Below are positions 6,394-32,466 of a DNA stretch of 44,277 nt, piece by piece. The stretch spans positions 1 through 44,277 of the IMG/VR virus record IMGVR_UViG_3300024290_000007; one strand, given 5' to 3'. The notes below the pieces were generated by a model that saw only the letters and a program-made list of their open reading frames with translations, searched no databases and had not been told where the DNA came from. This DNA is from a virus. Made by a program: the position numbers and the translations under genes. Every line of letters starts with the position of its first letter. The stretch's first letter is position 1.

Positions 6394-6607
6394 GCAGCTC
6401 ACCGAAGGTTCTGGAGAATGTGTCTCGCGAGGCACACTCGCATCCTCGGTTGAGTCGCGCAAGGCATATCAAAACAGCGCCGTAGGAGTTTCTTGCTGAC
6501 GGGGTGTGTCTCTCGCGCACATACCTCGCGCGAAAGCATGACGCCGTTATAGCGCGCGTGATATACGAGGACTCTTGAACCCCTAGTCCAAACAGATATC
6601 CGCAGCT
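6394..6607. promoter_or_regulatory. Divergent control region of the lysogeny switch
   Basis: This gap lies between the leftward HTH gene and the rightward XRE gene. It carries a near-perfect operator-like dyad at 6420-6437 (GTGTCTCGCGAGGCACAC), a right half-site CGCAAGGCATAT at about 6458-6469, and a left half-site with imperfect partner at 6520-6540. There is also a CTCGCGC-containing element around 6505-6522. I cannot place minus 35 and minus 10 boxes with confidence. The arrangement resembles a multi-operator immunity region. Confidence 0.6.
6420..6437. promoter_or_regulatory. Operator-like dyad, switch region
   Basis: GTGTCTCGCGAGGCACAC has 7-bp arms around CGCG with one mismatch between arms. 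It shares the CTCGCGAGGC core with the sites at 17.9-18.3 kb. It lies just upstream of the preferred ATG of the Cro-like gene. Confidence 0.6.
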
Positions 6608-7429
6608 ATGAACAACACTCCTCGTAAGCGCGTGAAAACTCCCACGCGCGTCCCGAAGGCAGCATTGAAGTCCGACACCGGCGCGAATCCTGCGCTGTCT
6701 AAACCGAATATCGACGATCCGCTTAGCGAGCCCACGCGTCATCGACGCGTCTGGGCTGCGTATCTTGCGCGCGGGTTTACTCGGCGGCAGTTCGCCGAGG
6801 AGCTGGGCACGAACTACCACACGGTCAACCGGTGGGACGCAGGCGCTGCAACGATCTCGCTCGACATGCTGCAACGTGCCAGCGAGCTTCTGAAATACAC
6901 AATGGACGAGCTGTGCTTCGGACGGCGCGGGCCTGTAGAAGCGCCGCGCGTCAACGCAGCGCCTGCAGCGCCTGCAGCGCCTGCAGCGCCTGCAATCGCA
7001 GCGCCCACTGCAGCTGCAGCGCCTGCAGCGCGCGCGGCGACTGCTGTTCGCGCAGCGCTAACAGCCCTTGCAGCGCCTGCTCAGCTCGTAGCGCCTGCTC
7101 AGCCTGCAGAGCGCGCCGGCAGCGCGCTGCACTTTGCAATCGGAAGTGTGCTGAACGAGTCGGAGATTCGGGCGTTGTTCGGCATGCAACGCATTGATCC
7201 GCAAACTCGCGCAGCGTTCGGCGAGCACACCGTAAGCCCCGTGGGGCGCTACCAGTCGTTCACTGCTGAGTACGTCACAGCTTGGTGCGCTGCGTACGCA
7301 GCGAGCCAGAGCCCGGAAGTCGCGCTCAATGCAGCGGTCAACGCTCGCGCGGTGACCGAGGCAGTCAGCAACGGGGTCTCTCCTGTTACCGCTGATGAAC
7401 TACGCGCAGCACTTCGCCAGAAGCAGTAG
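6608..7429 (+). CDS. XRE-family repressor candidate (CI-like)
   Basis: This 273-residue protein has an N-terminal Cro/CI-type helix-turn-helix: HRRVWAAYLARGFTRRQFAE, then ELGTNYHTVNRWDAGAATIS and LDMLQRASELL (about residues 40-97). An Ala/Pro linker of about 65 residues, encoded by tandem CTGCAG-containing repeats, follows. The C-terminal domain (residues 175-273) contains YVTAWCAAYAASQSPEVALN and is of unknown fold. There is no Ser-Lys self-cleavage signature, so RecA-driven autoproteolysis is not evident. It is divergent from the Cro-like gene and surrounded by the dyad sites, making it the best candidate for the protein that binds them (inference). The ribosome site is weak. Confidence 0.7.
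   Translation: MNNTPRKRVKTPTRVPKAALKSDTGANPALSKPNIDDPLSEPTRHRRVWAAYLARGFTRRQFAEELGTNYHTVNRWDAGAATISLDMLQRASELLKYTMDELCFGRRGPVEAPRVNAAPAAPAAPAAPAIAAPTAAAAPAARAATAVRAALTALAAPAQLVAPAQPAERAGSALHFAIGSVLNESEIRALFGMQRIDPQTRAAFGEHTVSPVGRYQSFTAEYVTAWCAAYAASQSPEVALNAAVNARAVTEAVSNGVSPVTADELRAALRQKQ
6957..7105 (+). repeat. Tandem GCGCCTGCA repeat coding an Ala/Pro linker
   Basis: Units of 9 bp (GCAGCGCCT/GCGCCTGCA) repeat in phase from about 6957 to 6995 and continue degenerately to about 7105, with seven CTGCAG palindromes by my count. They encode the AAPAAPAAPAAPA linker of the repressor candidate. Related CTGCAG-rich expansions occur in linkers of unrelated genes at 13.7, 20.1, 23.0 and 39.8 kb. Confidence 0.75.
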
Positions 7430-13146: not shown

Positions 13147-13204
13147 GTCGACTATTTTGTGGTCAGGCGTTCTACCGACTGACCACAAAATAGTTGACGT
13201 TTTT
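13147..13204 (+). terminator. Strong intrinsic terminator after the RecD2 operon
   Basis: A 19-bp stem (GTCGACTATTTTGTGGTCA with its complement, one G-T pair) and a 14-nt loop are followed by GTTTTT. The stem is A/T-rich compared with surrounding DNA. The right arm contains a palindromic match to the left arm long enough to act on both strands. Confidence 0.9.
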
Positions 13205-13281: not shown

Positions 13282-13473
13282 ATGAACGCAGCAGAAGTTA
13301 TCGTGGGCGGTGTGTACGTGACACGGATTGCGGATCGGATGACGAAGGTTGTTGTGATTGCAGTAGCTTCTACGCCTGCCGGCGCCCGCAAGATGTACGA
13401 AGTACGCCCCGTGCGCAGCACGCGCGACACGTTCCTCGTGCGCTCCGCTCATCAGCTCTACATCGCGAAGTGA
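13282..13473 (+). CDS. Small beta-rich phage protein (SH3/KOW-like)
   Basis: A 63-residue protein starts at ATG 13282 behind AGGAGAGAG. A TTG at 13255 would add nine residues without a ribosome site. The pattern VIVGGVYVTRIADRMTKVVV, then KMYEVRPVRSTRDTFL and SAHQLYIAK, is a run of short beta strands typical of small phage proteins with an SH3-like barrel. Its role is unknown. It is flanked by a terminator upstream and a GC-rich hairpin downstream, so is probably a separate short transcript. Confidence 0.65.
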   Translation: MNAAEVIVGGVYVTRIADRMTKVVVIAVASTPAGARKMYEVRPVRSTRDTFLVRSAHQLYIAK

Positions 13474-13507: not shown

Positions 13508-13564
13508 TGCGCACCTAGACTCGACCTAAACCCTAGACCTCACAGAATCGAAAGCAGTAAGACC

Positions 13565-14464
13565 ATGGCCACCAAGAACGCTAAGACCGCCTCCAAGAAC
13601 GCCCCGAAGACTGCCGCCAAGAACGCTCCCAAAACCCCCAAGCCCGCCCCCTGGATGGACATGGCGAGCGTAGGCAAGGCTGCGATTGCAGCGCAGGAGA
13701 AGGCCCCGAAGGCAGCGCCTGCAGCGCAGGAGCCCAAGGCCCCGAAGGCCCCGAAGGCAGCGCCTGCAGCAGCGCCTGCAGCGCAGGAGCCCAAGGCCCG
13801 CAAGGTGGACTTCGGCCTACTGAGCACGCCCGACCTGCGCAAGCTGTGCAAGGTAGCCAAGGGTGAGATCGCGGTGGCCGCGAAGGCTGCGCTTGCTGCG
13901 CGCCTGGCGGTGGAGACAACGAAGGCAGCAGCAGCGCCTGCAGCAGCGCCTGCGCCTGCAGCAGTGCCTGCGCCCACGAAGGCCGCGAAGGCGCCCAAGG
14001 CTGAGAAGGCCGCGAAGGCGCGCAACGTGAACACGAACAGCGCCGTGCACGCCCCCGAGACGCTCGAAGCCTGCCAGGGCAAGGCGCCCAAGGGCGACAG
14101 CATCCACGCCCACTTCCTGCAGTTCCTGGCGCACAACGCTGCCTCGAACAGCGAGGCCTTCGTGGGTAGCCTGCGCCGCCCCCTGGGCGAGTTCATGGAC
14201 TTCCTGAAGGCGCAGCGCATCACCACGTGGGCGCAGCTCGACAGCAAGACGCTGGTGGCCTACCGCAAGGCTGCGAAGCAGACCGAGTCCGGCGAGGCGC
14301 GCGCAGTGTCCACGATGCGCATGTCGCTGGCGCGGGTCATCACCTTCCTGCGCGCCCAGGAGGAAGGCCTGGTGAACGCCGACGTGAGCCTCCTGCGGGT
14401 GAAGCTCAGCGCGGAGGAAAAGCAGGAGAAGGCCGAGGCTGCTTTCGTCGCGGAGGAGGAGTGA
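13565..14464 (+). CDS. Histone-H1-like tail fused to recombinase core-binding domain
   Basis: This 299-residue protein has three parts. Residues 1-78 are Lys/Ala/Pro repeats like histone H1 or bacterial nucleoid proteins (KNAKTASKNAPKTAAKNAPK; duplicated AAPAAQEPKA). Residues 79-112 resemble a SAP motif (LSTPDLRKLCKVAKGEIAVA), and then a second Lys/Ala/Pro linker follows. Residues 165-270 match the SAM-like N-terminal core-binding domain of tyrosine recombinases (FLQFLAHNAASNSEAFVGSL, RITTWAQLDSKTLVAYRK, TMRMSLARVITFLRAQ). No catalytic domain follows: there is no R..HxxR..Y. It is probably a DNA-binding architectural protein. Codon use is richer in GCC and AAG than in neighbours, suggesting high expression or a separate origin. 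Confidence 0.7.
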   Translation: MATKNAKTASKNAPKTAAKNAPKTPKPAPWMDMASVGKAAIAAQEKAPKAAPAAQEPKAPKAPKAAPAAAPAAQEPKARKVDFGLLSTPDLRKLCKVAKGEIAVAAKAALAARLAVETTKAAAAPAAAPAPAAVPAPTKAAKAPKAEKAAKARNVNTNSAVHAPETLEACQGKAPKGDSIHAHFLQFLAHNAASNSEAFVGSLRRPLGEFMDFLKAQRITTWAQLDSKTLVAYRKAAKQTESGEARAVSTMRMSLARVITFLRAQEEGLVNADVSLLRVKLSAEEKQEKAEAAFVAEEE

Positions 14465-14673
14465 TGGGCGACTACGCAGCCGAGTACGCCCGCTTCCACG
14501 CAGGCCCCGACGTCGACGACGAACACACATGCTGCGGGAAGTGCAGCCCCGAGGAGGCGCCCGCGCAGGAGATGGACGGGCGCGCCTGGCAGCCTTGCGA
14601 GGCCTGCCAGGAGTGCGAGGCCTGCAACCTGCAGGCCTGCGCTGAGCACGCTGCAGAGCGCGCTACGCGCTGA
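14464..14673 (+). CDS. Cys-rich miniprotein with CxxCxxCxxC motif
   Basis: A 69-residue protein starts at ATG 14464, overlapping the previous stop in a TGATG junction, so is translationally coupled to the core-binding-domain protein. It has eight cysteines: CCGKC near residues 23-27, CEACQECEAC at 45-54 and another at 59. The spacing CxxCxxCxxC is ferredoxin-like and could bind an Fe-S cluster, though two zinc sites are equally possible. The rest is acidic. I do not recognise a family. A strong terminator follows within 20 bp. Confidence 0.65.
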   Translation: MGDYAAEYARFHAGPDVDDEHTCCGKCSPEEAPAQEMDGRAWQPCEACQECEACNLQACAEHAAERATR

Positions 14674-14733: not shown

Positions 14734-15132
14734 CGGCGTTCTGCCTGCGCTCCTGCAGCGCCCACCGGTGGCGCGCCTGCCTGCGCCTGCGCTCCTGCAG
14801 CCGGGAGCTGCGCGCCTGCGCCTGCGCTCCAGCTCCTGCAGCCTGCGCCTGCGCCTGGGGCGCTGCCTTGCCTGCCCGCTGCAGGCCCCGAGGCGCCTGC
14901 AGCCTGGAGCGCTCCTGCGCCTGCGCTGCAGCTGCGCCTGCGCAGGCCTGGAAAACGCGCAGCTCGGACTGCGCTGCGCAGGCGTTTTTCGGGGCGTTTC
15001 CAGGGAGCTGCAGACGCGAAGTGTGAGGTGATTGTGGGGGTCATATTCCCACTTTTCTAGAGTCGGCGGCCGCGCCTGCGCGCCTGCGCTTGCGCGCTCA
15101 AGAACGCTCCTGCGTCGGCCGAACGTCTAGCG
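14734..15132. repeat. Non-coding CTGCGC/CTGCAG repeat tract
   Basis: No convincing gene is found between the terminator and the lipoprotein ATG. From 14744 to about 14960 the DNA is made of irregular units of GCCTGCGC and CTCCTGCAG, with several CTGCAG palindromes. Frames across it translate to Cys/Arg/Ala low complexity, unlike real genes here. At 15032-15054 a small GTGGG..CCCAC hairpin is followed by TTTT. The tract may be a decayed Ala/Pro linker gene, a structured RNA, or a by-product of the CTGCAG bias. Confidence 0.55.
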
Positions 15133-15666
15133 ATGGAGCACGTCGGCCGAAGACTGCTGCCCGCGTTGCTTGCAGCCTGCGCTGCAACGCCTGCAGCGCA
15201 GGAGCCCGACGCCTTCGTGGCTGCAGGAGCTGCAGGCACCGCAGAGCGCGTCAGCCCGACAGCAGAGTGTCCGCCCGCGCCGATGTGTCCTGCGGCCACA
15301 GCGTGCCCGGCTGCGCCCACGTGTCCCGCAATCGCACCACAGGTGAACTACGCCACCGAGCACGCACTGCGCGCGCCGTTCTGCCGCACAGCGGACGGCA
15401 AGACGTGGGGCTGCGAGACGTTCGACAGCGCAGGCGAGCCCGCAGGTAACGTCACCTACAGCGCAGGCAACACTGCGTGGTCGTGCGTGCTGCGCTCGCC
15501 CGATCCGTCAGCGCCTAACGGGCTCGGCTGGGGCCCGCGCTACACTGCGCCGCTCGCGTGCGGCGCAGGCAACGCGTGCGACGTGACCGTGGTCCTGACG
15601 AGCGGGGCAATCGAGCACCGCGCAGGAGTGTGCCTCGCGCAGCGCGCGCTCGATGTTGCGCCGTGA
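15133..15666 (+). CDS. Predicted secreted lipoprotein, Cys-rich
   Basis: This 177-residue protein begins with a short signal-like segment (MEHVGRRLLPALLAACAATP) containing LAAC, an acceptable lipobox with Cys16 as the lipid-attachment site. A Pro/Cys-rich region follows (ECPPAPMCPAATACPAAP, about residues 45-65), then a domain with regularly placed cysteines (FCRTADGKTWGCETF, SCVLRSP, ACGAGNACDVTVV) that could form disulphides outside the cytoplasm. A surface-exclusion (superinfection immunity) or lysis-related function is possible. No known family is recognised. No ribosome site is clear and it is not obviously cotranscribed with neighbours, as befits a lysogenic-conversion gene (inference). 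Confidence 0.6.
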   Translation: MEHVGRRLLPALLAACAATPAAQEPDAFVAAGAAGTAERVSPTAECPPAPMCPAATACPAAPTCPAIAPQVNYATEHALRAPFCRTADGKTWGCETFDSAGEPAGNVTYSAGNTAWSCVLRSPDPSAPNGLGWGPRYTAPLACGAGNACDVTVVLTSGAIEHRAGVCLAQRALDVAP

Positions 15667-16090: not shown

Positions 16091-16462
16091 TCAGTACTCG
16101 CCGGGCAGCATCAGACAGCGGTCTGTCAAGAACAGCTTGATCGTCGACAGCGGGAAGTCGCTGTATTCGATTTGCTGCACTGCGATGAACCTGTCGTTGC
16201 CGTCCGTGGCAGACAACGTCCATGTCTCGTCGTCGTTGCGCTGCAGCTCCCACGCCTGGAACGTCTCGACGCGTACGCTCGGCGTGGTCTGATGAGACAC
16301 AACTGCGTCGATCAGCCAGTACGCGTTCGCGGTCTCAGCGAGGTAGTGCACCCCGTCCGTGTAGCGGTACTTGCGCGTCCAGTGCAGGTAGTAGTTCGTC
16401 GTCCCGCAGAACTGCGCAAGCGCAGCGGTCAGCGCGCTGATGTCGATGCTTGCGTTGCTCAC
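16091..16462 (-). CDS. DUF6876-type protein coupled to integrase
   Basis: A 123-residue protein starts at GTG 16462 overlapping the integrase stop as GTGA. The sequence matches the DUF6876 pattern as I recall it: FCGTTNYYLHWTRKYRYTDG, then VHYLAETANAYWLIDAVVSH. It ends with a strand-rich half (WTLSATDGNDRFIAVQQI). The family is common in phages and plasmids but has no known function to my knowledge. Coupling to the integrase suggests it is made during lysogeny. Frames extending further upstream belong to the integrase locus and are not real. Confidence 0.75.
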   Translation of the reverse strand: MSNASIDISALTAALAQFCGTTNYYLHWTRKYRYTDGVHYLAETANAYWLIDAVVSHQTTPSVRVETFQAWELQRNDDETWTLSATDGNDRFIAVQQIEYSDFPLSTIKLFLTDRCLMLPGEY

Positions 16463-17850
16463 TTCTGACCTCCGTTCAGGCGCGCGATGATCTCTCTGAG
16501 CTCGGCCTTGCACTTCATGACCGTCTCGAGGTCCGGCGCTGTAGAAGGCGTGCCGCTCGGTAGTGCCAGGTAGTGCTTCTCGGCAACCTGCAGCGTGTGT
16601 CCGAGGCGGTCTGCTTTCGCCTTGGCGTTGCCCGGCAGTGGCGACTGGTAGGTCGCGCATGTGCTGCGCAGGTCCTTCAGGCAGAAGCCTTTCGGAGCGC
16701 TGCGCCCAGCCTTGCGGAGGCGCTTCGCAATGTTGCCCATGGCCTGGTAGCCCGTGCGGAACACGTACTCGCGTCCAGCTCGACCACGAATGAGCGCGCG
16801 CATCAGCTCGCCGAGCAGCGGGGAGTACGGCGCCATCTCGACGTCTCGCTCCATGCCAGTCTTCACCTTCTCCTTCGGCAGGCGCAGGATGTCGAGGCCT
16901 GTCCTGACGTCGGGGTCGTAGTCGCTCGGCGCGTCGAACATCACCTCGTGAACCTGCAGCGTTGCTAGCTCGCCGCGGCGCAGCCCACCGAGCAACGCAG
17001 CAGCAACGATGGGCGCTGTCGGGGCGGAGCGCTTGTGCCTGTGCGGCGACACGTCGAAGTCGAGCGCAGCGCGCAGGATGCTGCGGACCTGCGGCACCGA
17101 GTAGCAGACAGGCAGCGGCATCGGCTGCGTGAGGCGCTTGAGCCCGCCGCGGATCGCGTCGCTGTTCAAGTGCACGAGGCGTCCCGCAAGCGCAGCTGCA
17201 ACGAGCATCTGGCGCACGGGCTTCATCTCCTGGTTGACGGTCGAGACCTCGCGCGGCTCGCCGTGCTGCGTCAGCGTCCCGAGCCGCCACGTCACCCAGT
17301 CTGCAAGCGTGGGGCGCGTCAGCTGGTTCAGCTGCCTCGTCTGGCGCTTCTCGCACCACGTAGCCCACTGCTCGAGCGTGTCGCGGTAGCGGCGCAGAGT
17401 GATGGGCCTCGTGGGGCGTCCGCGCGCCGACACTTTCTTCCTGAGCCTGCCGAGATACGTCTCGATCTCCTGCCGCAGAGTCTCCGTGCTGCTGGTGAAC
17501 TCACGCCCGCCGGCGAGCGTGACCTGCAGCGCGCGGGCCTGCAGGTTGCGAGACAGCGTGACGGCCGAGGCCTCTGCATCCAGGGCGGTCGTCACCCCGT
17601 CGAGCTTGCGCTCCTGCGATTGTCCCGTCTCCGGGACGGTGTAACGCAGCGCGTAGAAACGCCGCCCGCGCCGCGGCGGTATCACAATCACGCCGGGATG
17701 CTTGGACTGCCCGCGCTCGACGCGCTTGCGCTTGCGCTCTCGCTTGGCCTTGCGCTCCCGGAGCTTCCCGCGCTCCGTCTCGGGCGGTGGCGGCGGAAGT
17801 AGCTCGGGGACGAAGGCCGGGACCAGTCTCAGTTTCGGTATTGCTGACAT
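16459..17850 (-). CDS. int: Tyrosine site-specific integrase
   Basis: This 463-residue integrase starts at ATG 17850 (MSAIPKLRLVP). It has a basic N-terminal arm-binding region (RKAKRERKRKRVERGQ), a core-binding domain (about 165-265, TLRRYRDTLEQWATWCEKRQ) and a catalytic domain. Catalytic residues visible are Arg in GGLRRGELATLQ (about 290), Lys in PKEKVKTG, KDLRSTCATY (about 392), LGH (about 417) and Tyr in EKHYLAL (about 427). The usual His of HxxR is Lys here (KDLR), a tolerated variant in some integrases. It catalyses phage integration and excision. Upstream is a 526-bp spacer with dyad sites and a divergent excisionase-like gene. attP probably lies nearby but I could not locate it. Confidence 0.92.
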   Translation of the reverse strand: MSAIPKLRLVPAFVPELLPPPPPETERGKLRERKAKRERKRKRVERGQSKHPGVIVIPPRRGRRFYALRYTVPETGQSQERKLDGVTTALDAEASAVTLSRNLQARALQVTLAGGREFTSSTETLRQEIETYLGRLRKKVSARGRPTRPITLRRYRDTLEQWATWCEKRQTRQLNQLTRPTLADWVTWRLGTLTQHGEPREVSTVNQEMKPVRQMLVAAALAGRLVHLNSDAIRGGLKRLTQPMPLPVCYSVPQVRSILRAALDFDVSPHRHKRSAPTAPIVAAALLGGLRRGELATLQVHEVMFDAPSDYDPDVRTGLDILRLPKEKVKTGMERDVEMAPYSPLLGELMRALIRGRAGREYVFRTGYQAMGNIAKRLRKAGRSAPKGFCLKDLRSTCATYQSPLPGNAKAKADRLGHTLQVAEKHYLALPSGTPSTAPDLETVMKCKAELREIIARLNGGQK

Positions 17851-17927
17851 GCTGCACTTTCGTGTTGCGAGGTCTGCACACCCATCTGCACACCCATAAG
17901 CGTGCTGATGCGTCGTATTCCGTTGAT

Positions 17928-17943
17928 ATGCCTCGCAAGGCAT
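17928..17943. promoter_or_regulatory. Operator-like dyad O1
   Basis: ATGCCTCGCAAGGCAT has perfect 6-bp arms around CGCA, about 80 bp upstream of the integrase ATG. Confidence 0.75.
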
Positions 17944-17992
17944 GACTCTCAGGATATCGGACAGGTGATGCATTTCCCGCACAATCTAGCGC

Positions 17993-18012
17993 ATATGTCT
18001 CGCGGGGCATAG
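17993..18012. promoter_or_regulatory. Operator-like dyad O2
   Basis: ATATGTCTCGCGGGGCATAG matches the dyad consensus with two arm mismatches. It lies 50 bp from O1. Confidence 0.6.
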
Positions 18013-18067
18013 CAACATCGTGTACCTAGTACGCGCGAGATATATCGCCTGGATATCTTTGCTGTTT

Positions 18068-18087
18068 CTATGCCTTGTAAGGCATAG
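18068..18087. promoter_or_regulatory. Operator-like dyad O3 (best copy)
   Basis: CTATGCCTTGTAAGGCATAG has perfect 8-bp arms around TGTA and is the most symmetric member of the family. It sits mid-spacer between the integrase and excisionase-like genes. Confidence 0.8.
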
Positions 18088-18290
18088 CGCGCCACCTAAG
18101 CGCCCACCCATGCACGAGTGATCGTGCTTGAAAACAAGTGTTCAACGCGCTCGCGCGCGGCGTCCGCACACGCGGACGTTAGGCTTCTGCGCCGCGCTTT
18201 ACTGCTACCGTTTGAGCGCCTGTCAACAGCGATATGCCGCGCGAGCAATGTCCGTTTCAGCTCATGCGTCGGCGCTGCAGCCTGCGCCGG

Positions 18291-18309
18291 TATGTCTCGC
18301 TGGGCTTAG
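18291..18309. promoter_or_regulatory. Operator-like dyad O4
   Basis: TATGTCTCGCTGGGCTTAG is a degenerate member of the same family, about 70 bp upstream of the excisionase-like ATG. Confidence 0.5.
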
Positions 18310-18376: not shown

Positions 18377-18625
18377 ATGACTAGGCCGAACAACCTGCCG
18401 CCGTGGCTCGACGACATCTACCAGGGGCTCGCTCCGCTCCTGACGGTAGCTGAATGCGCCGAGGTCCTACGGCTCGCGCCTGAGACGGTGCGCAGGCACT
18501 GCCGTGCGGGCACGCTGCGCGCAGTGCAGCAACACACGGGCCGCGGCGGTTCGCCCATTCTTATTCCTCGCGCCAGCGTGATCGAATGGCTGGCGCGTCG
18601 AACGCTGCACCCAACGGTCGACTGA
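18377..18625 (+). CDS. Excisionase-like HTH protein
   Basis: This 82-residue protein carries a MerR/excisionase-type helix-turn-helix (HTH_17-like): LLTVAECAEVLRLAPETVRR, then HCRAGTLRAVQ and ILIPRASVIEWLARR. This is the typical pattern of DNA-binding directionality factors that bend DNA next to attP. It is divergent from the integrase across the operator-rich spacer, where an excisionase gene is often placed. Alternatively it could be an AlpA-like activator. The start is preceded only by a weak GCGAGAA. Confidence 0.75.
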   Translation: MTRPNNLPPWLDDIYQGLAPLLTVAECAEVLRLAPETVRRHCRAGTLRAVQQHTGRGGSPILIPRASVIEWLARRTLHPTVD

Positions 18626-21559: not shown

Positions 21560-22386
21560 CCGGGCGTGACCAGACGCATGCCGTAGTTGTCTGGTCCGTC
21601 CGGCAGCACGAGCCCAGGCTTGCGCTTGAGCTTGTTAGTCTTGAACGGGCGGTAGTCCACCTTGTGCTGCCAGCGGTTCCACAGACGCGTAACCTTGGTC
21701 ACGTCGGGGTGCTGGCGCTGCAGCGAGCGCGCCATCTCGAGGCGCCCGTCGCCCTGATACAGCGCCTCGGTGTTGCCGCCTGTCATCTTCATCGTGGCAA
21801 CCTTCGTCGCCAAGAACGCGATGAACAACACCGTGCACCAGCCGTCCTTCAGCGCGCGCAGCGACAGGTCCGTGTCTTCGTTGTAGCGGCCGCGCCAGCG
21901 ATACGGCAGGTCGTTCTTGATCAGGATGCAGGAGTAGATGCGGGTGTTGAAGCGCATCGGCGGCCACGAGCATTCGGCGGTCTGCGCGAACATGGTGTAC
22001 TCGAAGCCCGCGATCGCCACGTTCTCGTAGCGGTCCACAAAGTCTTCAGCAGCGCGGAACATGGTGCCGTCTGCAACGATGCGCCTGTCGCCTTTGTGCA
22101 GGCGGCGGAAGTCTCGAATGTTGTCGTCGAGTATCCAGTGCCGCTCTGCGCCTCGGCTCACCGCATGCTCCCAGACCCAGTTGCGCGCCGGGATGCTGCC
22201 GAGCCCGAGGTTGCTGAACGGCAACACGAGCAGCTTCTCGGGCGCCATCACCGCGCGGTACTCGTCGTACTCCTGCGGCTCGATCACGACGTGATGCGGC
22301 ACGCGCATCCGCTCGAGCGCGCGCACCGTCAGGCGGGTGTCCGCTCGGCCCTTGGAGATCACGTAAACGGGGTAGCGAGGATTCAC
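21556..22386 (-). CDS. TET-associated-type glycosyltransferase (TAGT-like)
   Basis: A 276-residue protein starts at GTG 22386 in a GTGA overlap with the ParB-like gene. The sequence fits the phage TAGT family: YPVYVISKGRADTRLTVRAL, SNLGLGSIPARNWVWEHAVS, RHWILDDNIRDF (the DDN acting like a DxD sugar-nucleotide site), and RWRGRYNEDTDLSLRALKDG. These enzymes are known or predicted to add sugars to oxidised 5-methylcytosine in phage DNA, protecting it from restriction. No TET dioxygenase or cytosine methyltransferase is visible here, so the acceptor base is unclear. Placement at the end of the late operon suggests modification late in infection. Confidence 0.8.
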   Translation of the reverse strand: MNPRYPVYVISKGRADTRLTVRALERMRVPHHVVIEPQEYDEYRAVMAPEKLLVLPFSNLGLGSIPARNWVWEHAVSRGAERHWILDDNIRDFRRLHKGDRRIVADGTMFRAAEDFVDRYENVAIAGFEYTMFAQTAECSWPPMRFNTRIYSCILIKNDLPYRWRGRYNEDTDLSLRALKDGWCTVLFIAFLATKVATMKMTGGNTEALYQGDGRLEMARSLQRQHPDVTKVTRLWNRWQHKVDYRPFKTNKLKRKPGLVLPDGPDNYGMRLVTPG

Positions 22387-23186
22387 TGCGCGGGCTCCTC
22401 GGCTGCAGCGCTGCCCGCAGCATCCGCCTCGCCCCACTGCTGGGTGCTGAGGTCCGTCTGCCGCTTGTACGGGTACCAGATCGACACCGTCTCCGTGGTC
22501 ACAGCTTGCCCCACGAGCGCAGCAAACTGCGCGACGTGCTCCTCGCAGGTGAAGAGCACCGCGACCCGCGCGAACGATCGGGGCGTGCCGTCGAACTCGG
22601 GCATACCCTTCCACTCGTCCTCGGCGACGTCCGGGATGTTGAGGTCCGGCATACCCCACTCGTTCAGCTTGATCGGGTCGAACTCCTTGAGCAGAACCTC
22701 GAGGTCGAACTCGCCCGTTGCGCCGCGGTGCAGGTAGATCGTCAGCTTCTCGCGCTCGAGCTCGGTCAGCTCGCGCGAGCAGACGCGGGCCTCAAGCTCG
22801 AAGTCGGGGCCGTGCTTCGCGGCGAGAACCTTCAGCCGCTGGTGCCCGTTGTAGACTTCCATGTTCGGGCCTACGGCGATCAGCTCCACCTGCCCGAACT
22901 CCTCGAACGAGTTGAGCAGGCGGGCGGACTGCGCCTCGTTGATCCGTCGCGGGTTCCTGGGCCACGGCATGAGCGCCCGCAGCTGCACCCGCTGCGTAGT
23001 CCACGCGAGCGCTGCTGCAGGAGCTGCAGGCGCAGGAGCTGCAGGCGCAGGAGCTGCAGGCGCAGGCGCGGGAGCTGCCGGGGCCTGCACACGCTTCAGC
23101 ACGCGCTTCGGGACGCGCTTCGGAACAGTCGCCGCAGACTGCGGCTTCGGGCTCGGGCGCTTGCGTTTCGGTGTTGCACTCGTCAT
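22383..23186 (-). CDS. ParB-like (sulfiredoxin-fold) protein with Ala/Pro linker
   Basis: A 267-residue protein starts at ATG 23186 (MTSATPKRKRPSPKPQ). A basic N-terminus and an Ala/Pro linker coded by 15-bp repeats lead into a ParB/Srx domain: LMPWPRNPRRINEAQSARLL, then EEFGQVELIAVG and the signature VYNGHQRLKVLAAKH (GHR-type NTP-binding box). The C-terminal 130 residues contain HLHRGA-like YLHRGATGEFDLEVLLKEF. Single ParB-like domains occur with DNA-modification genes in phages, and some are CTPases or nucleases. Coupling by GTGA to the glycosyltransferase implies a shared pathway (inference). Confidence 0.78.
   Translation of the reverse strand: MTSATPKRKRPSPKPQSAATVPKRVPKRVLKRVQAPAAPAPAPAAPAPAAPAPAAPAAALAWTTQRVQLRALMPWPRNPRRINEAQSARLLNSFEEFGQVELIAVGPNMEVYNGHQRLKVLAAKHGPDFELEARVCSRELTELEREKLTIYLHRGATGEFDLEVLLKEFDPIKLNEWGMPDLNIPDVAEDEWKGMPEFDGTPRSFARVAVLFTCEEHVAQFAALVGQAVTTETVSIWYPYKRQTDLSTQQWGEADAAGSAAAEEPAQ
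23021..23065 (-). repeat. 15-bp tandem repeat in the ParB-like linker
   Basis: Three exact copies of GAGCTGCAGGCGCAG lie at 23021-23035, 23036-23050 and 23051-23065 and encode PAPAA units. The unit shares CTGCAG and GCGCAG with the repeat at 20121-20165 in an unrelated gene. Confidence 0.9.
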
Positions 23187-23203
23187 GCGTTCTGCAGCCT
23201 TCG

Positions 23204-25696
23204 TCAGCAGGGGATCGACGCCATCAGGCCCAGTTGCCCCGGCGAAAGTGTGCCCGCTGCGATCGCGGTCGTCGTCCCTGTCGCGAACAGGAGCGCGTAG
23301 AAGTTGTGCACGCCCTCTGACGGACGCGCGTTTAGAGTCGACATCAACGCAGCATAGACGGTGGCCGCCGCGTTGCTGACAGTACGAAAGCCCGACGCCG
23401 ACGAGCTGGAGTCGGCTCCGATGCCCACCGCGCACGCGAAGCCCTTCGTGTCGATCGACCCGACCATCGTCAGCGGCCACGAGTCGCACTGAATGCCGCA
23501 CACGCCCGTGATGCGTGACGTCGTCACGCCGTCATACGGAAGCCATGTGCTCGCGGTCGGGATCGTGTAGGTCGACGTGGTCGCTTGCCACGAATATTGG
23601 AGCGGAACGCGGTTGTCCTGGTTCCAGATCCCGCAGATCGCAGGAGTGGTGCCACCACCCGTGAGAGCTTGGACGTACTGCGTCGCGCTCGAAGGCAAGA
23701 TCGTTCCGACATAGCGTCGCGTCGCGTCAATACCCTTCGTCCAAAACCCGTACGAGCTTTGCGAGATCGACGTCGATCGTGCGGTCGCGCTCGACCAATG
23801 TTGCAGCTCAAGCGCAATGCGCGCGGCCGTATTGACCGCATACGCAAAGACGTCGATCGGCCTTCCGGCAACGGCGCTAGTGATAGCGATCGACGGAATC
23901 GACGCCGTGTTGACCTGCACGTGATAGACGCCATCGGCGGCAACGATGCCGCTCGTCAGTGGGACAAACAGACTGATGTGTTGTCCGTTCCACGGTGTGA
24001 GGTAGACCGTGGAGAACGTGCCATCGGCAGCAATCGGCACCACGCTGGAAGTCGAGATACGCAGATTGTTTTGTGCCGCGCCGCCCGGAGGCACCCACAC
24101 GGCACTGGTCGCGGAGTTCGCCGTGAGCACGTTGCCGACCGTAAGCCCCGAGAGATTCGCGATCGAATCAACCTTGTTTTTGTCCGTGTTCGACATGAAG
24201 CCCGATGCGCCGCTCGTCGCAGCGTTCGGCATCGCGTGCACGTGGTCAGCACGCGCCAACTGGTTCGAGGTGCCGCCGTTGTTCGAGCCGCCTACCGTTA
24301 GACCGGTCGGCGTCCCCACCGACACGCTATGCGTGTGGTCACGTCGAGCTGCATCGGTGGCTGCGCCTGCAGCTGCAGTCGTCACAGTGATCTGCGTCGG
24401 CGCAGTGCTCGTCAGAGCTGCTGCGCCTGTAGCGATCCCCGCAAGCTTCACCTTCTCGGCGCCAGAAAAGAATCCGCTCACCGTCGTCGTTGCGTCAGCG
24501 TGCAGCGCTCCGCCGCCGAGGTTCCCGTGCACCCCAGCAGTGATCGGCCCAACGAGATGAATCTTGTTGCCGACGCGCGTCATGAAGTCGCCGCCAGTGA
24601 TCGGCGAGCCCGGCGAGATTTGGTCCCACTGACCGTCGCCGCGATATGTCCACATCGAGCCTGCGAACTTGGTGCCGTCGTCCACCACCACGAGCTGTCC
24701 GACTGGCGTGTCCTCCGGGAGCGGCAGCGCGCGCGGCCATGTGCCGTCGAATGTCTCCCAGAAACCGTTCTCGCTCGGGTCGCTCTGAGCAACCGCAAGC
24801 ACGGTGATGTTGGTGCCGTACCCGATCCCGTCTGTCTCGGCCCCGCCACTATTCCCGTAGAGGTCACTGGGCGCAGATACAATCGCGTCGACATGGATCG
24901 CGTTCGTGTACGCATCGCCCAGCGTCGGCCAGACCGCCGGACCCACGTCCGACCACGCAGCATGCTCTGCGTCGAGCGCAACCAAAACTTGACCCGCGGT
25001 CGGCGCTGCAGAGCTTGCGACCTCGACCGTTCCACCTGCGACTGCAATGCGCTTCGCGATGCCTGCCGTGTCGCTCACGAGTCCCCAGAGCGCAGCAGCG
25101 TCCTCGTGATAGAACACCCACTCATAGTCGGAGCCCGGCAGGAGCGCCGTGCTCGACGCGAGCACGCCATCGGTCCCTTGAATCTGCGACGCGCCGAGCA
25201 CACTAACAGTCACAGGCACTGTGACGTCACGCCCGACATACAGACCGAATCTAGAGTCTACTGGCGGCGCTTCGAGCGACGACACGATGTAGACCACGAC
25301 GGGCGTTACGCCGTCCGCCGGCTGCGATATGAATCCCCACGTGCCGGGTCCGATAGTCGCCGAGCCCACGCTGTTAGTCCAAAACTTGATGCCCGGATCG
25401 TAGTGCAGCCCAGGCACACGCCACTCCGCGTGCTCTGCGTCGACAGCAGTCAGCACCTGGCCTGCAACGGGAGGCGCAGCGTTCGAGACGTCGACAGGAT
25501 CGCCGGTGGTCTCGAGCCCGCCCGCATCGCTGCCTGCGCCTCCGCCTGGCTGCCAAGTTGCGTGCGTAGCGTCGACAGCTTTCAGCACGTCGCCAGGATT
25601 CGGCGGCGTTGAGTTAGACACGTTGACGGGTACGTCCGTCGTCGCGAGGTCCGCTGCGGTCGCGCCGCCCTGCAGTATGTTGTCGAGAAAGCTCAC
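23204..25696 (-). CDS. Tail fibre protein with repeated modules
   Basis: This 830-residue late protein starts at GTG 25696 behind GAGGTGA. It has the low-charge, Thr/Ser/Gly/Ala-rich composition of tail fibres. A module of about 30 residues recurs: GDVLKAVDATHATWQ (about 35-49), GQVLTAVDAEHAEWR (about 79-93), GQVLVALDAEHAAW (about 237-250) and GNVLTANSATSAVW further on. Such GQVL.A......W modules are typical of trimeric fibre shafts. The C-terminal 250 residues lack repeats and are the likely receptor-binding head. It lies after the baseplate genes, as expected. Confidence 0.8.
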   Translation of the reverse strand: MSFLDNILQGGATAADLATTDVPVNVSNSTPPNPGDVLKAVDATHATWQPGGGAGSDAGGLETTGDPVDVSNAAPPVAGQVLTAVDAEHAEWRVPGLHYDPGIKFWTNSVGSATIGPGTWGFISQPADGVTPVVVYIVSSLEAPPVDSRFGLYVGRDVTVPVTVSVLGASQIQGTDGVLASSTALLPGSDYEWVFYHEDAAALWGLVSDTAGIAKRIAVAGGTVEVASSAAPTAGQVLVALDAEHAAWSDVGPAVWPTLGDAYTNAIHVDAIVSAPSDLYGNSGGAETDGIGYGTNITVLAVAQSDPSENGFWETFDGTWPRALPLPEDTPVGQLVVVDDGTKFAGSMWTYRGDGQWDQISPGSPITGGDFMTRVGNKIHLVGPITAGVHGNLGGGALHADATTTVSGFFSGAEKVKLAGIATGAAALTSTAPTQITVTTAAAGAATDAARRDHTHSVSVGTPTGLTVGGSNNGGTSNQLARADHVHAMPNAATSGASGFMSNTDKNKVDSIANLSGLTVGNVLTANSATSAVWVPPGGAAQNNLRISTSSVVPIAADGTFSTVYLTPWNGQHISLFVPLTSGIVAADGVYHVQVNTASIPSIAITSAVAGRPIDVFAYAVNTAARIALELQHWSSATARSTSISQSSYGFWTKGIDATRRYVGTILPSSATQYVQALTGGGTTPAICGIWNQDNRVPLQYSWQATTSTYTIPTASTWLPYDGVTTSRITGVCGIQCDSWPLTMVGSIDTKGFACAVGIGADSSSSASGFRTVSNAAATVYAALMSTLNARPSEGVHNFYALLFATGTTTAIAAGTLSPGQLGLMASIPC

Positions 25697-30526: not shown

Positions 30527-32466
30527 GCGAACGCTGCCCCCGTCTGCACTGCAACCGTCTCGAGGATGGACTCCAGCTCGCGCTTCACTGCCTGCGCGAT
30601 GTTGCGTGCGTCCTCGGCGCTGGCGTTGCCGCCGACCTGCACGGTGAGCGATGCGATGGTGATAGCTGCGCCGCCTGCGCGCGCAGCTCCTGCAGGCACT
30701 GCTGCAGTGGGGTCGCCGCCTGCGTTCGCGATGGCATCCTGCGCGCTGTCGGACTCCTTCGACACGCCTTGCTCGAGACCTTGCACGACGTTCACGCCGA
30801 GCTCGGCCATCACCTTCGACGGCGACTGCATTCCGAAGATCGACTTGAAGCCCGCGATGCCTGCCTTGGCGATGTCGACCAAGGAGTCGATGAATATCTC
30901 CTTGGCGCGCTTCAGCCCGTTCACGAGCCCGTCGATGATCTGAATGCCGAGCTGGCCAAAGTCCGCTGTCGTGAACAGCTCCCACAGATACTCGAACACT
31001 TTGATCAGCAGGTAGACCGCGCCGACGGCGAGTATGAACGGCCACGTTGCGGCGATGACCGACACAGCGAGACCGGCGAACGCGACAACTGCTGCAGCGC
31101 AGGCGCTCACAGCTGTGCCTGCGAACGCCCACAGCGACGGTATGACCATGTAGAGCAGCACGCCCGCGCCAGCTGTCAGCAGTTCTTTCCACTCATCGCC
31201 GAGCACCGACTTCACGGTCTCCCAGAGCTTGTCGAGCGCAGTGCCCACAGCTGCGATCGCCTTCACGGCGTTCGGAAACTTTTCCTTCAGCATCGCGATG
31301 CCGGTCTGCGTGGCGATCTGGAACTTGAGCCAGATGACCTCTGCAGTCAGGAGCGCGATGATGATCTCCTGCACCGTGATTTTGAACAGGCGCGAGAGCG
31401 CAGTCAGCCCGTCCACGAGCGGCTGCGTGATCGTGCCGAGCATCTGGCGCATTGCGCGCCCGCTCGCGGTGCTCTGCGAGAACAGGTCGTTGAATGCCTT
31501 GCGCGCGTCGAGCAAGCCCGAGATGTCGATGTCGCCGAACAGCGAGTTGTAAGACTCGGCGAGCTTGCGCGCCTGCACTTCGCTCGACTTCATCTTGCGC
31601 GAGACGACGCCGCCGATCTGGTTGTTCACCCGCTGCGCCAGCTTGTCGACGCTGCCACCTGTGAGCGCGAGCTGTGCCGCCCAAGCTGCAGTCTGCGTCG
31701 CGCGCTCCTCGCCCCACCCAGACGCCGCCATCGAGACTGCGCGCAACGCGGGCGCGACGTTCTTTCCGCGCACGCCCATCTTGTCGAGCTGCGCGGCGTA
31801 CTTCGCCACCTCATCGCGCCCGATCGTGACGCTCGCAGCAACCTGATCGACCGCAGTCTGCAGGTCCTTGGCATTGTTGCGCGCGAGCCCGAAGGCCATG
31901 CCCATCACGGTCGGGAGCTTCGTGCTCGCCTCGAGCATCAGCAGTTCGTTGCGCCGTGCCTCCTGCGCCGCGATTGCGAAGTCGGCGAGATGCTTCGCAG
32001 ACGCTACTGCTGCAACACCGAGCGCGAGCACTGCGCCGGCAAGCGCGAACGCTGCCACCTTCGCGAGCTGCTTCGAGTTCGCGAGGCGCGCGAGCATGCT
32101 GACGACGCCGCCGAACGGACCCGGCAGTGTCGACGCTGCCTTCGCTAGCTCTTCCATCTTTTCTCGGAACTGCTTCGCGCCCTTGTAGTTCTTGCCGAAC
32201 TGCCCGCCCTGGGCGATGAACTTTTCCTTCGACTGAGTGATGCGCGCGTTCACCTGCGCGATCGACTTCTCGAGCTTGCCGATTTGCTCCGTGTTCGGGT
32301 TCGTCGCCTTCTTGAGCTGGTTCAGCGTCCGCTGCATCTCAGCGAGCGCCTTCGTGTCCGACTTGATGCTGTCTTGCAGCTTGGCCAATGCAGTAGCGGC
32401 GGACTCGGCGGGCTCGCTGACCCCGTCCACCATCTCAATGCCGAATGTTGCTGTCTCTTCAGCCAT
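30523..32466 (-). CDS. Tape measure protein
   Basis: This 647-residue protein sets tail length and is ejected with DNA. It starts right after the GT chaperone region, as in nearly all tailed phages. Residues 20-90 form a coiled coil (AKLQDSIKSDTKALAEMQRT, QIGKLEKSIAQVNARITQSK). Hydrophobic segments occur near 150-170 (VAAFALAGAVLALGVAAVAS) and 425-490 (VLLYMVIPSLWAFAGTAV; AVVAFAGLAVSVIAATWPFI). A C-terminal GMQSPSKVMAELGVNVVQGL motif is common in tape measures. The length would predict a short tail (about 95 nm at 1.5 angstrom per residue, a rule of thumb). Confidence 0.9.
   Translation of the reverse strand: MAEETATFGIEMVDGVSEPAESAATALAKLQDSIKSDTKALAEMQRTLNQLKKATNPNTEQIGKLEKSIAQVNARITQSKEKFIAQGGQFGKNYKGAKQFREKMEELAKAASTLPGPFGGVVSMLARLANSKQLAKVAAFALAGAVLALGVAAVASAKHLADFAIAAQEARRNELLMLEASTKLPTVMGMAFGLARNNAKDLQTAVDQVAASVTIGRDEVAKYAAQLDKMGVRGKNVAPALRAVSMAASGWGEERATQTAAWAAQLALTGGSVDKLAQRVNNQIGGVVSRKMKSSEVQARKLAESYNSLFGDIDISGLLDARKAFNDLFSQSTASGRAMRQMLGTITQPLVDGLTALSRLFKITVQEIIIALLTAEVIWLKFQIATQTGIAMLKEKFPNAVKAIAAVGTALDKLWETVKSVLGDEWKELLTAGAGVLLYMVIPSLWAFAGTAVSACAAAVVAFAGLAVSVIAATWPFILAVGAVYLLIKVFEYLWELFTTADFGQLGIQIIDGLVNGLKRAKEIFIDSLVDIAKAGIAGFKSIFGMQSPSKVMAELGVNVVQGLEQGVSKESDSAQDAIANAGGDPTAAVPAGAARAGGAAITIASLTVQVGGNASAEDARNIAQAVKRELESILETVAVQTGAAFA

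Follow-up and report, generated by a model that had tools for sequence, protein, structure and literature searches.

A 299-aa protein encoded by a tailed phage couples a Lys/Ala/Pro-rich tail to a tyrosine-recombinase core-binding domain, as predicted by sequence profiles and structure models, and ends where the catalytic domain of an integrase would stand. On balance, judging from sequence, models and analogy, we favour the view that it is a non-catalytic DNA-binding accessory protein of the phage, which would combine an integrase-type grip with a cationic tail and serve on phage DNA in an architectural or occupancy role.

The stretch of DNA analysed, referred to as the window, is the IMG/VR record IMGVR_UViG_3300024290_000007 at its whole length of 44,277 bases. 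Its minus strand carries tailed-phage genes (portal, head maturation protease, major head protein, tail sheath and tape measure), and its left part encodes a primase, an exonuclease and a RecD2-type helicase. No bacterial relative was found via the primase alignment and no tRNA in the window, so that no host was assigned. The motif CTGCAG occurs 173 times in the window (positions 1-44277, 3.9 per kb), against about 15 copies expected from base composition; its density in the near relative G002 is 3.4 per kb, and four remoter records have 0.7-1.6 per kb.

Gene and Reading Frame

The open reading frame extends exactly from an ATG at 13565 to a stop at 14464 and is a genuine coding gene. Its frame reaches a per-codon log-odds of +0.281, and the five other frames range from -0.597 to -0.120. 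Each half of the gene, with 0.257 and 0.308 per codon, shows the codon usage typical of the genome (all other frames being negative), and the GC content at the three codon positions (0.67/0.53/0.85) resembles that of the neighbouring genes. The gene and the parts of its product are:

13565-14464, plus strand: Lys/Ala/Pro-tailed protein of 299 aa with a predicted stand-alone core-binding domain (ORF, codon usage)
13565-14059, plus strand: residues 1-165, Lys/Ala/Pro-rich tail, mostly disordered by prediction, net charge +19, with KAPKA and AAPAA repeats and without a SAP match (composition, AlphaFold2, Pfam, repeats)
14096-14368, plus strand: residues 178-268, predicted tyrosine-recombinase core-binding (SAM-like) domain, net charge +3 (PF02899, Foldseek, VIA-align, integrase-group profile)
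14369-14461, plus strand: residues 269-299, acidic C-terminal end, net charge -4, where a catalytic domain would stand (composition, phrog_1)

A Stand-Alone Core-Binding Domain

The first-pass annotation had proposed an orphan core-binding domain in the C-terminal part and suggested a profile search and a structure prediction, both of which gave a match. Taken together, PF02899, the structure matches and a profile of related integrases confirm residues about 178-268 as a stand-alone tyrosine-recombinase core-binding domain, as far as sequence and models can tell. The Pfam model of the phage integrase N-terminal SAM-like domain, PF02899, matches the whole 299-aa protein with E 0.0045 and residues 161-299 with E 5.4e-4 and 20.6 bits, a score below the curated cut-off of 22.3 bits, while none of eight controls (one reversed, seven shuffled) matched. 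When the window was scanned in six frames with the same model at E up to 10, the integrase alone was matched and not the gene described here, which counts against the domain call. Weak matches of the NCBIfam XerD (TIGR02225, 15.1 bits) and integrase_1 models fall in the same place as PF02899.

Two AlphaFold2 models, each computed from one sequence, have a pLDDT of 46.7 (whole protein) and 65.3 (residues 161-299). The best Foldseek match for both is 3nrw, the N-terminal domain of a haloarchaeal integrase, with a TM-score by target of 0.71 and E 0.40 for the whole-protein model, and of 0.64, E 0.053 and probability 1.00 for the model of residues 161-299. Eight of the first nine of 22 VIA-align rows are named integrases or Xer recombinases (Z 9.9 to 7.5, in a range, below about 13, where helical bundles can give trivial values). 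The ninth row, 2khv, is named only Nmul_A0922 and is presumably an integrase domain; the next row is an unrelated chain with Z 5.4. For such models the purity of the list is a stronger point than the Z values. A fold search in BFVD delivered nothing at E 0.001 or better, with some integrases among the top rows.

The group profile was built from the core-binding region of five aligned integrases, namely those of the window, G025, G036, G033 and G030; a sixth, from G023, is included in alignment A4 and was left out of the profile. Residues 161-299 obtain 22.7 bits with this profile and the reversed sequence 5.0, and 0 of 1,913 scored shuffles (of 2,000) reach 22.7 bits, their maximum being 10.2. 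Over the 7,933 ORFs of all loci, residues 161-299 appear at E 1.6e-4, ranked below the true integrases but above L045, a 300-aa ORF that bears PF02899 and obtains 6.0 bits. If one integrase at a time is left out, the resulting profiles give the domain 14.4 to 22.9 bits. Profile-profile comparison by hhalign placed it on the same integrase region (E 0.001 as a single comparison, probability only 21). Compared as single sequences, the domain beats all scored shuffles against two of twelve integrase-like ORFs (L084, L112), and 23 of 346 shuffles reach its score against the window's own integrase. Since this latter match falls within the shuffles, we do not claim that the domain was copied from the window's own integrase gene. 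The weak profile scores fit what the cited passages of the literature say of core-binding domains, the architecture of which is preserved while their sequence is much less conserved (PMC8138268).

Cationic N-Terminal Tail

Residues 1-165 consist of 35% A, 15% K and 13% P, with a pI of 10.3, and KAPKA occurs four times in the protein. The Lys/Ala/Pro-rich, histone-H1-like tail that had been noticed from the letters alone is thus real in composition and, by the model, mostly disordered: pLDDT stays mostly below 50, with a single weak helix at residues 88-117 (block means about 33-42). The SAP-like helix pair claimed along with it found no support, given that the N-terminal 160 aa have no match among Pfam families up to E 10 and that the model offers just this one low-confidence helix; this verdict is based on profiles and a single-sequence model, and a degenerate SAP could escape profiles.

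The DNA coding for the tail is made of short repeat units (GCAGCGCCTGCA and the like), and GCCTGC-type repeats are also present in the stretch 14743-15089. The tail may be a composition effect or a product of slippage. Lys/Ala/Pro-rich stretches are not unique to this protein, because five further ORFs carry one in a set of 18 records that includes the window: 22383-23501 on the minus strand of the window and one ORF each in G024, G026, G030 and G035. In the window ORF the stretch precedes another domain, and the part scanned had no Pfam match; by eye, from its motif, this domain looks ParB-like. The ORF of G035 (30999-32279) is arranged in a similar way. A further observation concerns a 128-aa Lys/Ala/Pro-rich ORF in L014 (17510-17896, plus strand), in which VD..LS...RK.C recalls residues 81-95 of the 299-aa protein; this may be chance.

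Search for Relatives

The first-pass annotation had also proposed to look for the same fusion in other genomes. No sequence relative was found in viral contigs, in phages and plasmids (tblastn, residues 161-299) or in bacterial genome contigs, and none of 36 related phage records holds one. The query was the whole protein for 18 of them (E limit 1) and for twelve others (E limit 10), and residues 161-299 for the remaining six (E limit 10); the whole-record search at E up to 1 took in 18 of the 43 loci from the helicase and portal scans. When all 57 loci were searched by tblastn, the window's own copy alone matched. The three closest records, G001-G003, cover the window only beyond about 25.4 kb and are uninformative for this gene. 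A sequence search of PDB gave nothing meaningful and PHROGs no match for the protein. By sequence it is the only case found to date, which limits its interest.

Four records, G025, G030, G033 and G036, encode an integrase of the same type as that of the window, and no relative of the 299-aa protein was found in any of them. Consequently, an integrase of this type seems not to need the protein in general.

Missing Catalytic Half and the Phage's Own Integrase

Besides the gene described here, the window carries one recombinase gene:

16459-17982, minus strand: tyrosine recombinase of the phage, with core-binding and catalytic regions of its own (profiles, group alignment, phrog_1)

Scanned in six frames with phrog_1, the window gives a single match, the integrase at 16570-17727 (E 1.0e-27), and thus neither a second recombinase nor another catalytic domain was found in it. 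We relied on phrog_1 because PF00589 at E up to 10 had no match in the window and missed even the real integrase. The 299-aa protein ends 31 residues past its core-binding domain and lacks a catalytic domain with the RKHRH pentad and the tyrosine. Since no catalytic domain follows the core-binding domain, in agreement with what was first read from the sequence, it is not an integrase. Loss of a catalytic domain through a downstream frameshift is ruled out as well: phrog_1 sees the integrase only, and the ATG of the next gene, which encodes a 69-aa Cys-rich protein, overlaps the stop codon and leaves no room for a lost half. The window integrase retains residues that are invariant in the group alignment, among them (numbered as in this protein) R335, K374, R439, H462 and Y471, which correspond to catalytic residues of the family. 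To judge from its sequence, the window's only tyrosine recombinase looks intact.

The region next to the integrase shows a further feature. Between the integrase (minus strand) and an HTH gene (plus strand), at 17925-18308, there are five copies of palindromic sites like TATGYCTYGYNNGGCATA, and two more are located at 6419-6468, upstream of an HTH_3 gene (6608-7429). Over the whole window and both strands 18 such sites match, against 1.0 expected. By their sequence and placement these palindromes resemble operator sites for a regulator of lysogeny.

A link between the 299-aa protein and the phage's integrase is possible. The protein might share the site preference of the integrase, occupy the core-type sites of attP or of attL/R, either inhibiting or helping synapsis, similar to a recombination directionality factor made from a part of a recombinase. 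We consider this unlikely, if worth keeping in mind. It fits the kinship between the domain and its counterparts in the group's integrases, as well as the position of the integrase gene, which follows after 2 kb on the opposite strand. However, the same-type integrases of the four records named above do without the protein, the domain, compared as a single sequence with the window's own integrase, does not stand out from its shuffles, that integrase has a core-binding region of its own, and an excisionase-like HTH candidate is already present at 18377-18625.

The nearest precedent for such a partnership is MpsB of Salmonella genomic island 1 (SGI1), a 98-aa protein that resembles a tyrosine-recombinase core-binding domain (predicted PF13495), is made beside MpsA, a tyrosine-recombinase-like relaxase, and is required for conjugative transfer, according to the cited passages (PMC6414798). 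Like the 299-aa protein, MpsB is a natural stand-alone protein of the core-binding type without a catalytic domain, encoded on a mobile element, and its recombinase-like partner needs it (PMC6414798). In contrast, a cationic tail does not figure in those passages (PMC6414798). In addition, MpsB is encoded beside its partner, whereas the protein described here has the 69-aa Cys-rich protein as neighbour and the sole recombinase found is 2 kb away on the other strand.

Accessory Cassette and the Related Phage G023

The surroundings of the gene were compared with a related phage, G023 (IMGVR_UViG_3300024222_000003, 44,282 bases):

13282-13473, plus strand: upstream cassette gene of 63 aa, homologous to part of a 152-aa G023 protein (37% identity)
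13549-13559, plus strand: leader motif CGAAAGCAGTA ahead of the gene for the 299-aa protein, with exact copies before two G023 cassette genes
14464-14673, plus strand: Cys-rich protein of 69 aa, 52% identical to a 118-aa G023 protein over the aligned part
15133-15666, plus strand: downstream cassette gene of 177 aa, the homologue of which is a 181-aa G023 protein

No relative of the 299-aa protein was found in G023, though the flanking small genes have homologues there. From this comparison, the gene sits in an accessory cassette which G023 possesses without it. Another cassette like these two was not found with the Cys-rich protein as query.

The G023 homologue of the Cys-rich protein (L056, 16585-16941, minus strand) has an added C-terminal recombinase-like helix-turn-helix, which matches PF20552 with E 0.0062, below the cut-off, and PF07508 with E 0.12. 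Together with the core-binding domain of the 299-aa protein, recombinase-type DNA-binding parts would thus occur in two phages at one cassette, of the tyrosine and, weakly, of the serine kind. An AT-rich inverted repeat at 13147-13198, between the helicase operon and the cassette, has 23-nt arms that are 91% complementary and a 6-nt spacer, and no other copy of its arm was found in the window at up to 3 mismatches. By its sequence it is a candidate operator, terminator or recombination-type site.

Such a setting of short genes with the common leader CGAAAGCAGTA might also suit a DNA-binding regulator that acts as repressor or activator of promoters, in its own cassette or among the host's genes, and has no part in recombination, and both the recurrence of recombinase-type DNA-binding parts at the cassette (the G023 helix-turn-helix, with PF20552 below cut-off) and the inverted repeat upstream are in line with it. 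However, no operator is tied to the 299-aa protein and the repeat arm is unique in the window, and we therefore give a regulatory role only a rather small chance.

Proposed Role and Known Parallels

We thus return to the non-catalytic accessory protein as the preferred reading. Its C-terminal domain, a type shared with the group's integrases, would grip one face of the DNA duplex, with a contact expected from the family and resembling that of lambda Int or the Xer enzymes. The disordered cationic tail would add electrostatic affinity and might let the protein coat or bridge DNA in the manner of H1-like tails. Lacking the catalytic half, it could occupy DNA and could not cut it. Its role on phage DNA, in infection or in lysogeny, would then be an architectural or occupancy one that the phage can do without, and the protein may prefer integrase-type sites. 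The functions suggested in the first-pass annotation, namely binding to attP, compaction of phage or host DNA and modulation of the integrase, are conceivable.

A bolder version, to which we assign little probability, would see in it a phage-made chromatin-like factor derived from an integrase: the captured core-binding domain would bring attachment-site preference, the H1-like tail would condense or bridge DNA there and thereby set whether the integrase acts, and the helix-turn-helix of G023 would mean that such a recruitment had happened a second time, independently, at this cassette. It is very improbable that the domain is just a leftover of a broken integrase, fused by chance to a low-complexity tail made by slippage, since, in spite of the repetitive tail DNA (GCAGCGCCTGCA and similar units, with GCCTGC-type repeats also in 14743-15089) and of the failure to find relatives that would show conservation, the frame runs uninterrupted from its ATG to its stop codon and both halves use codons as the rest of the genome does, the leader motif common to G023 genes stands in front, the stop codon overlaps the start of the next gene and phrog_1 detects no catalytic leftover downstream.

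For the non-catalytic accessory protein, each half has a known counterpart. AlgP/AlgR3 of Pseudomonas aeruginosa consists of a helical domain and a histone-H1-like tail of KPAA repeats, which is long, disordered and rich in K, P and A, and KPAA fragments bind DNA (PMC9239181). However, this tail is C-terminal and built of KPAA tandem repeats, whereas the tail described here is N-terminal and KPAA is absent from the sequence; moreover, AlgP is cellular and not of phage origin, and the cited passages do not describe its helical domain as a recombinase domain (PMC9239181). Lambda Int, XerA, XerH and 3nrw share the helical core-binding fold, as judged from the best structural rows and the profile match, but in the 299-aa protein this domain nearly ends the chain and no catalytic domain comes after it. 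A core-binding domain and an H1-like tail in one protein were not found described in the literature searched. The earlier statement that no described protein of this architecture was known is partly weakened, as each half has a precedent in MpsB and AlgP, going by the cited passages (PMC6414798; PMC9239181). Thus the halves are known and their combination looks unusual.

Recombinases are generally thought of as whole enzymes. If the proposed role is true, a phage can turn a part of an integrase into a non-cutting DNA-binding factor, with the grip kept and an H1-like tail added, and the 299-aa protein would offer a simple test of what a core-binding domain does alone.
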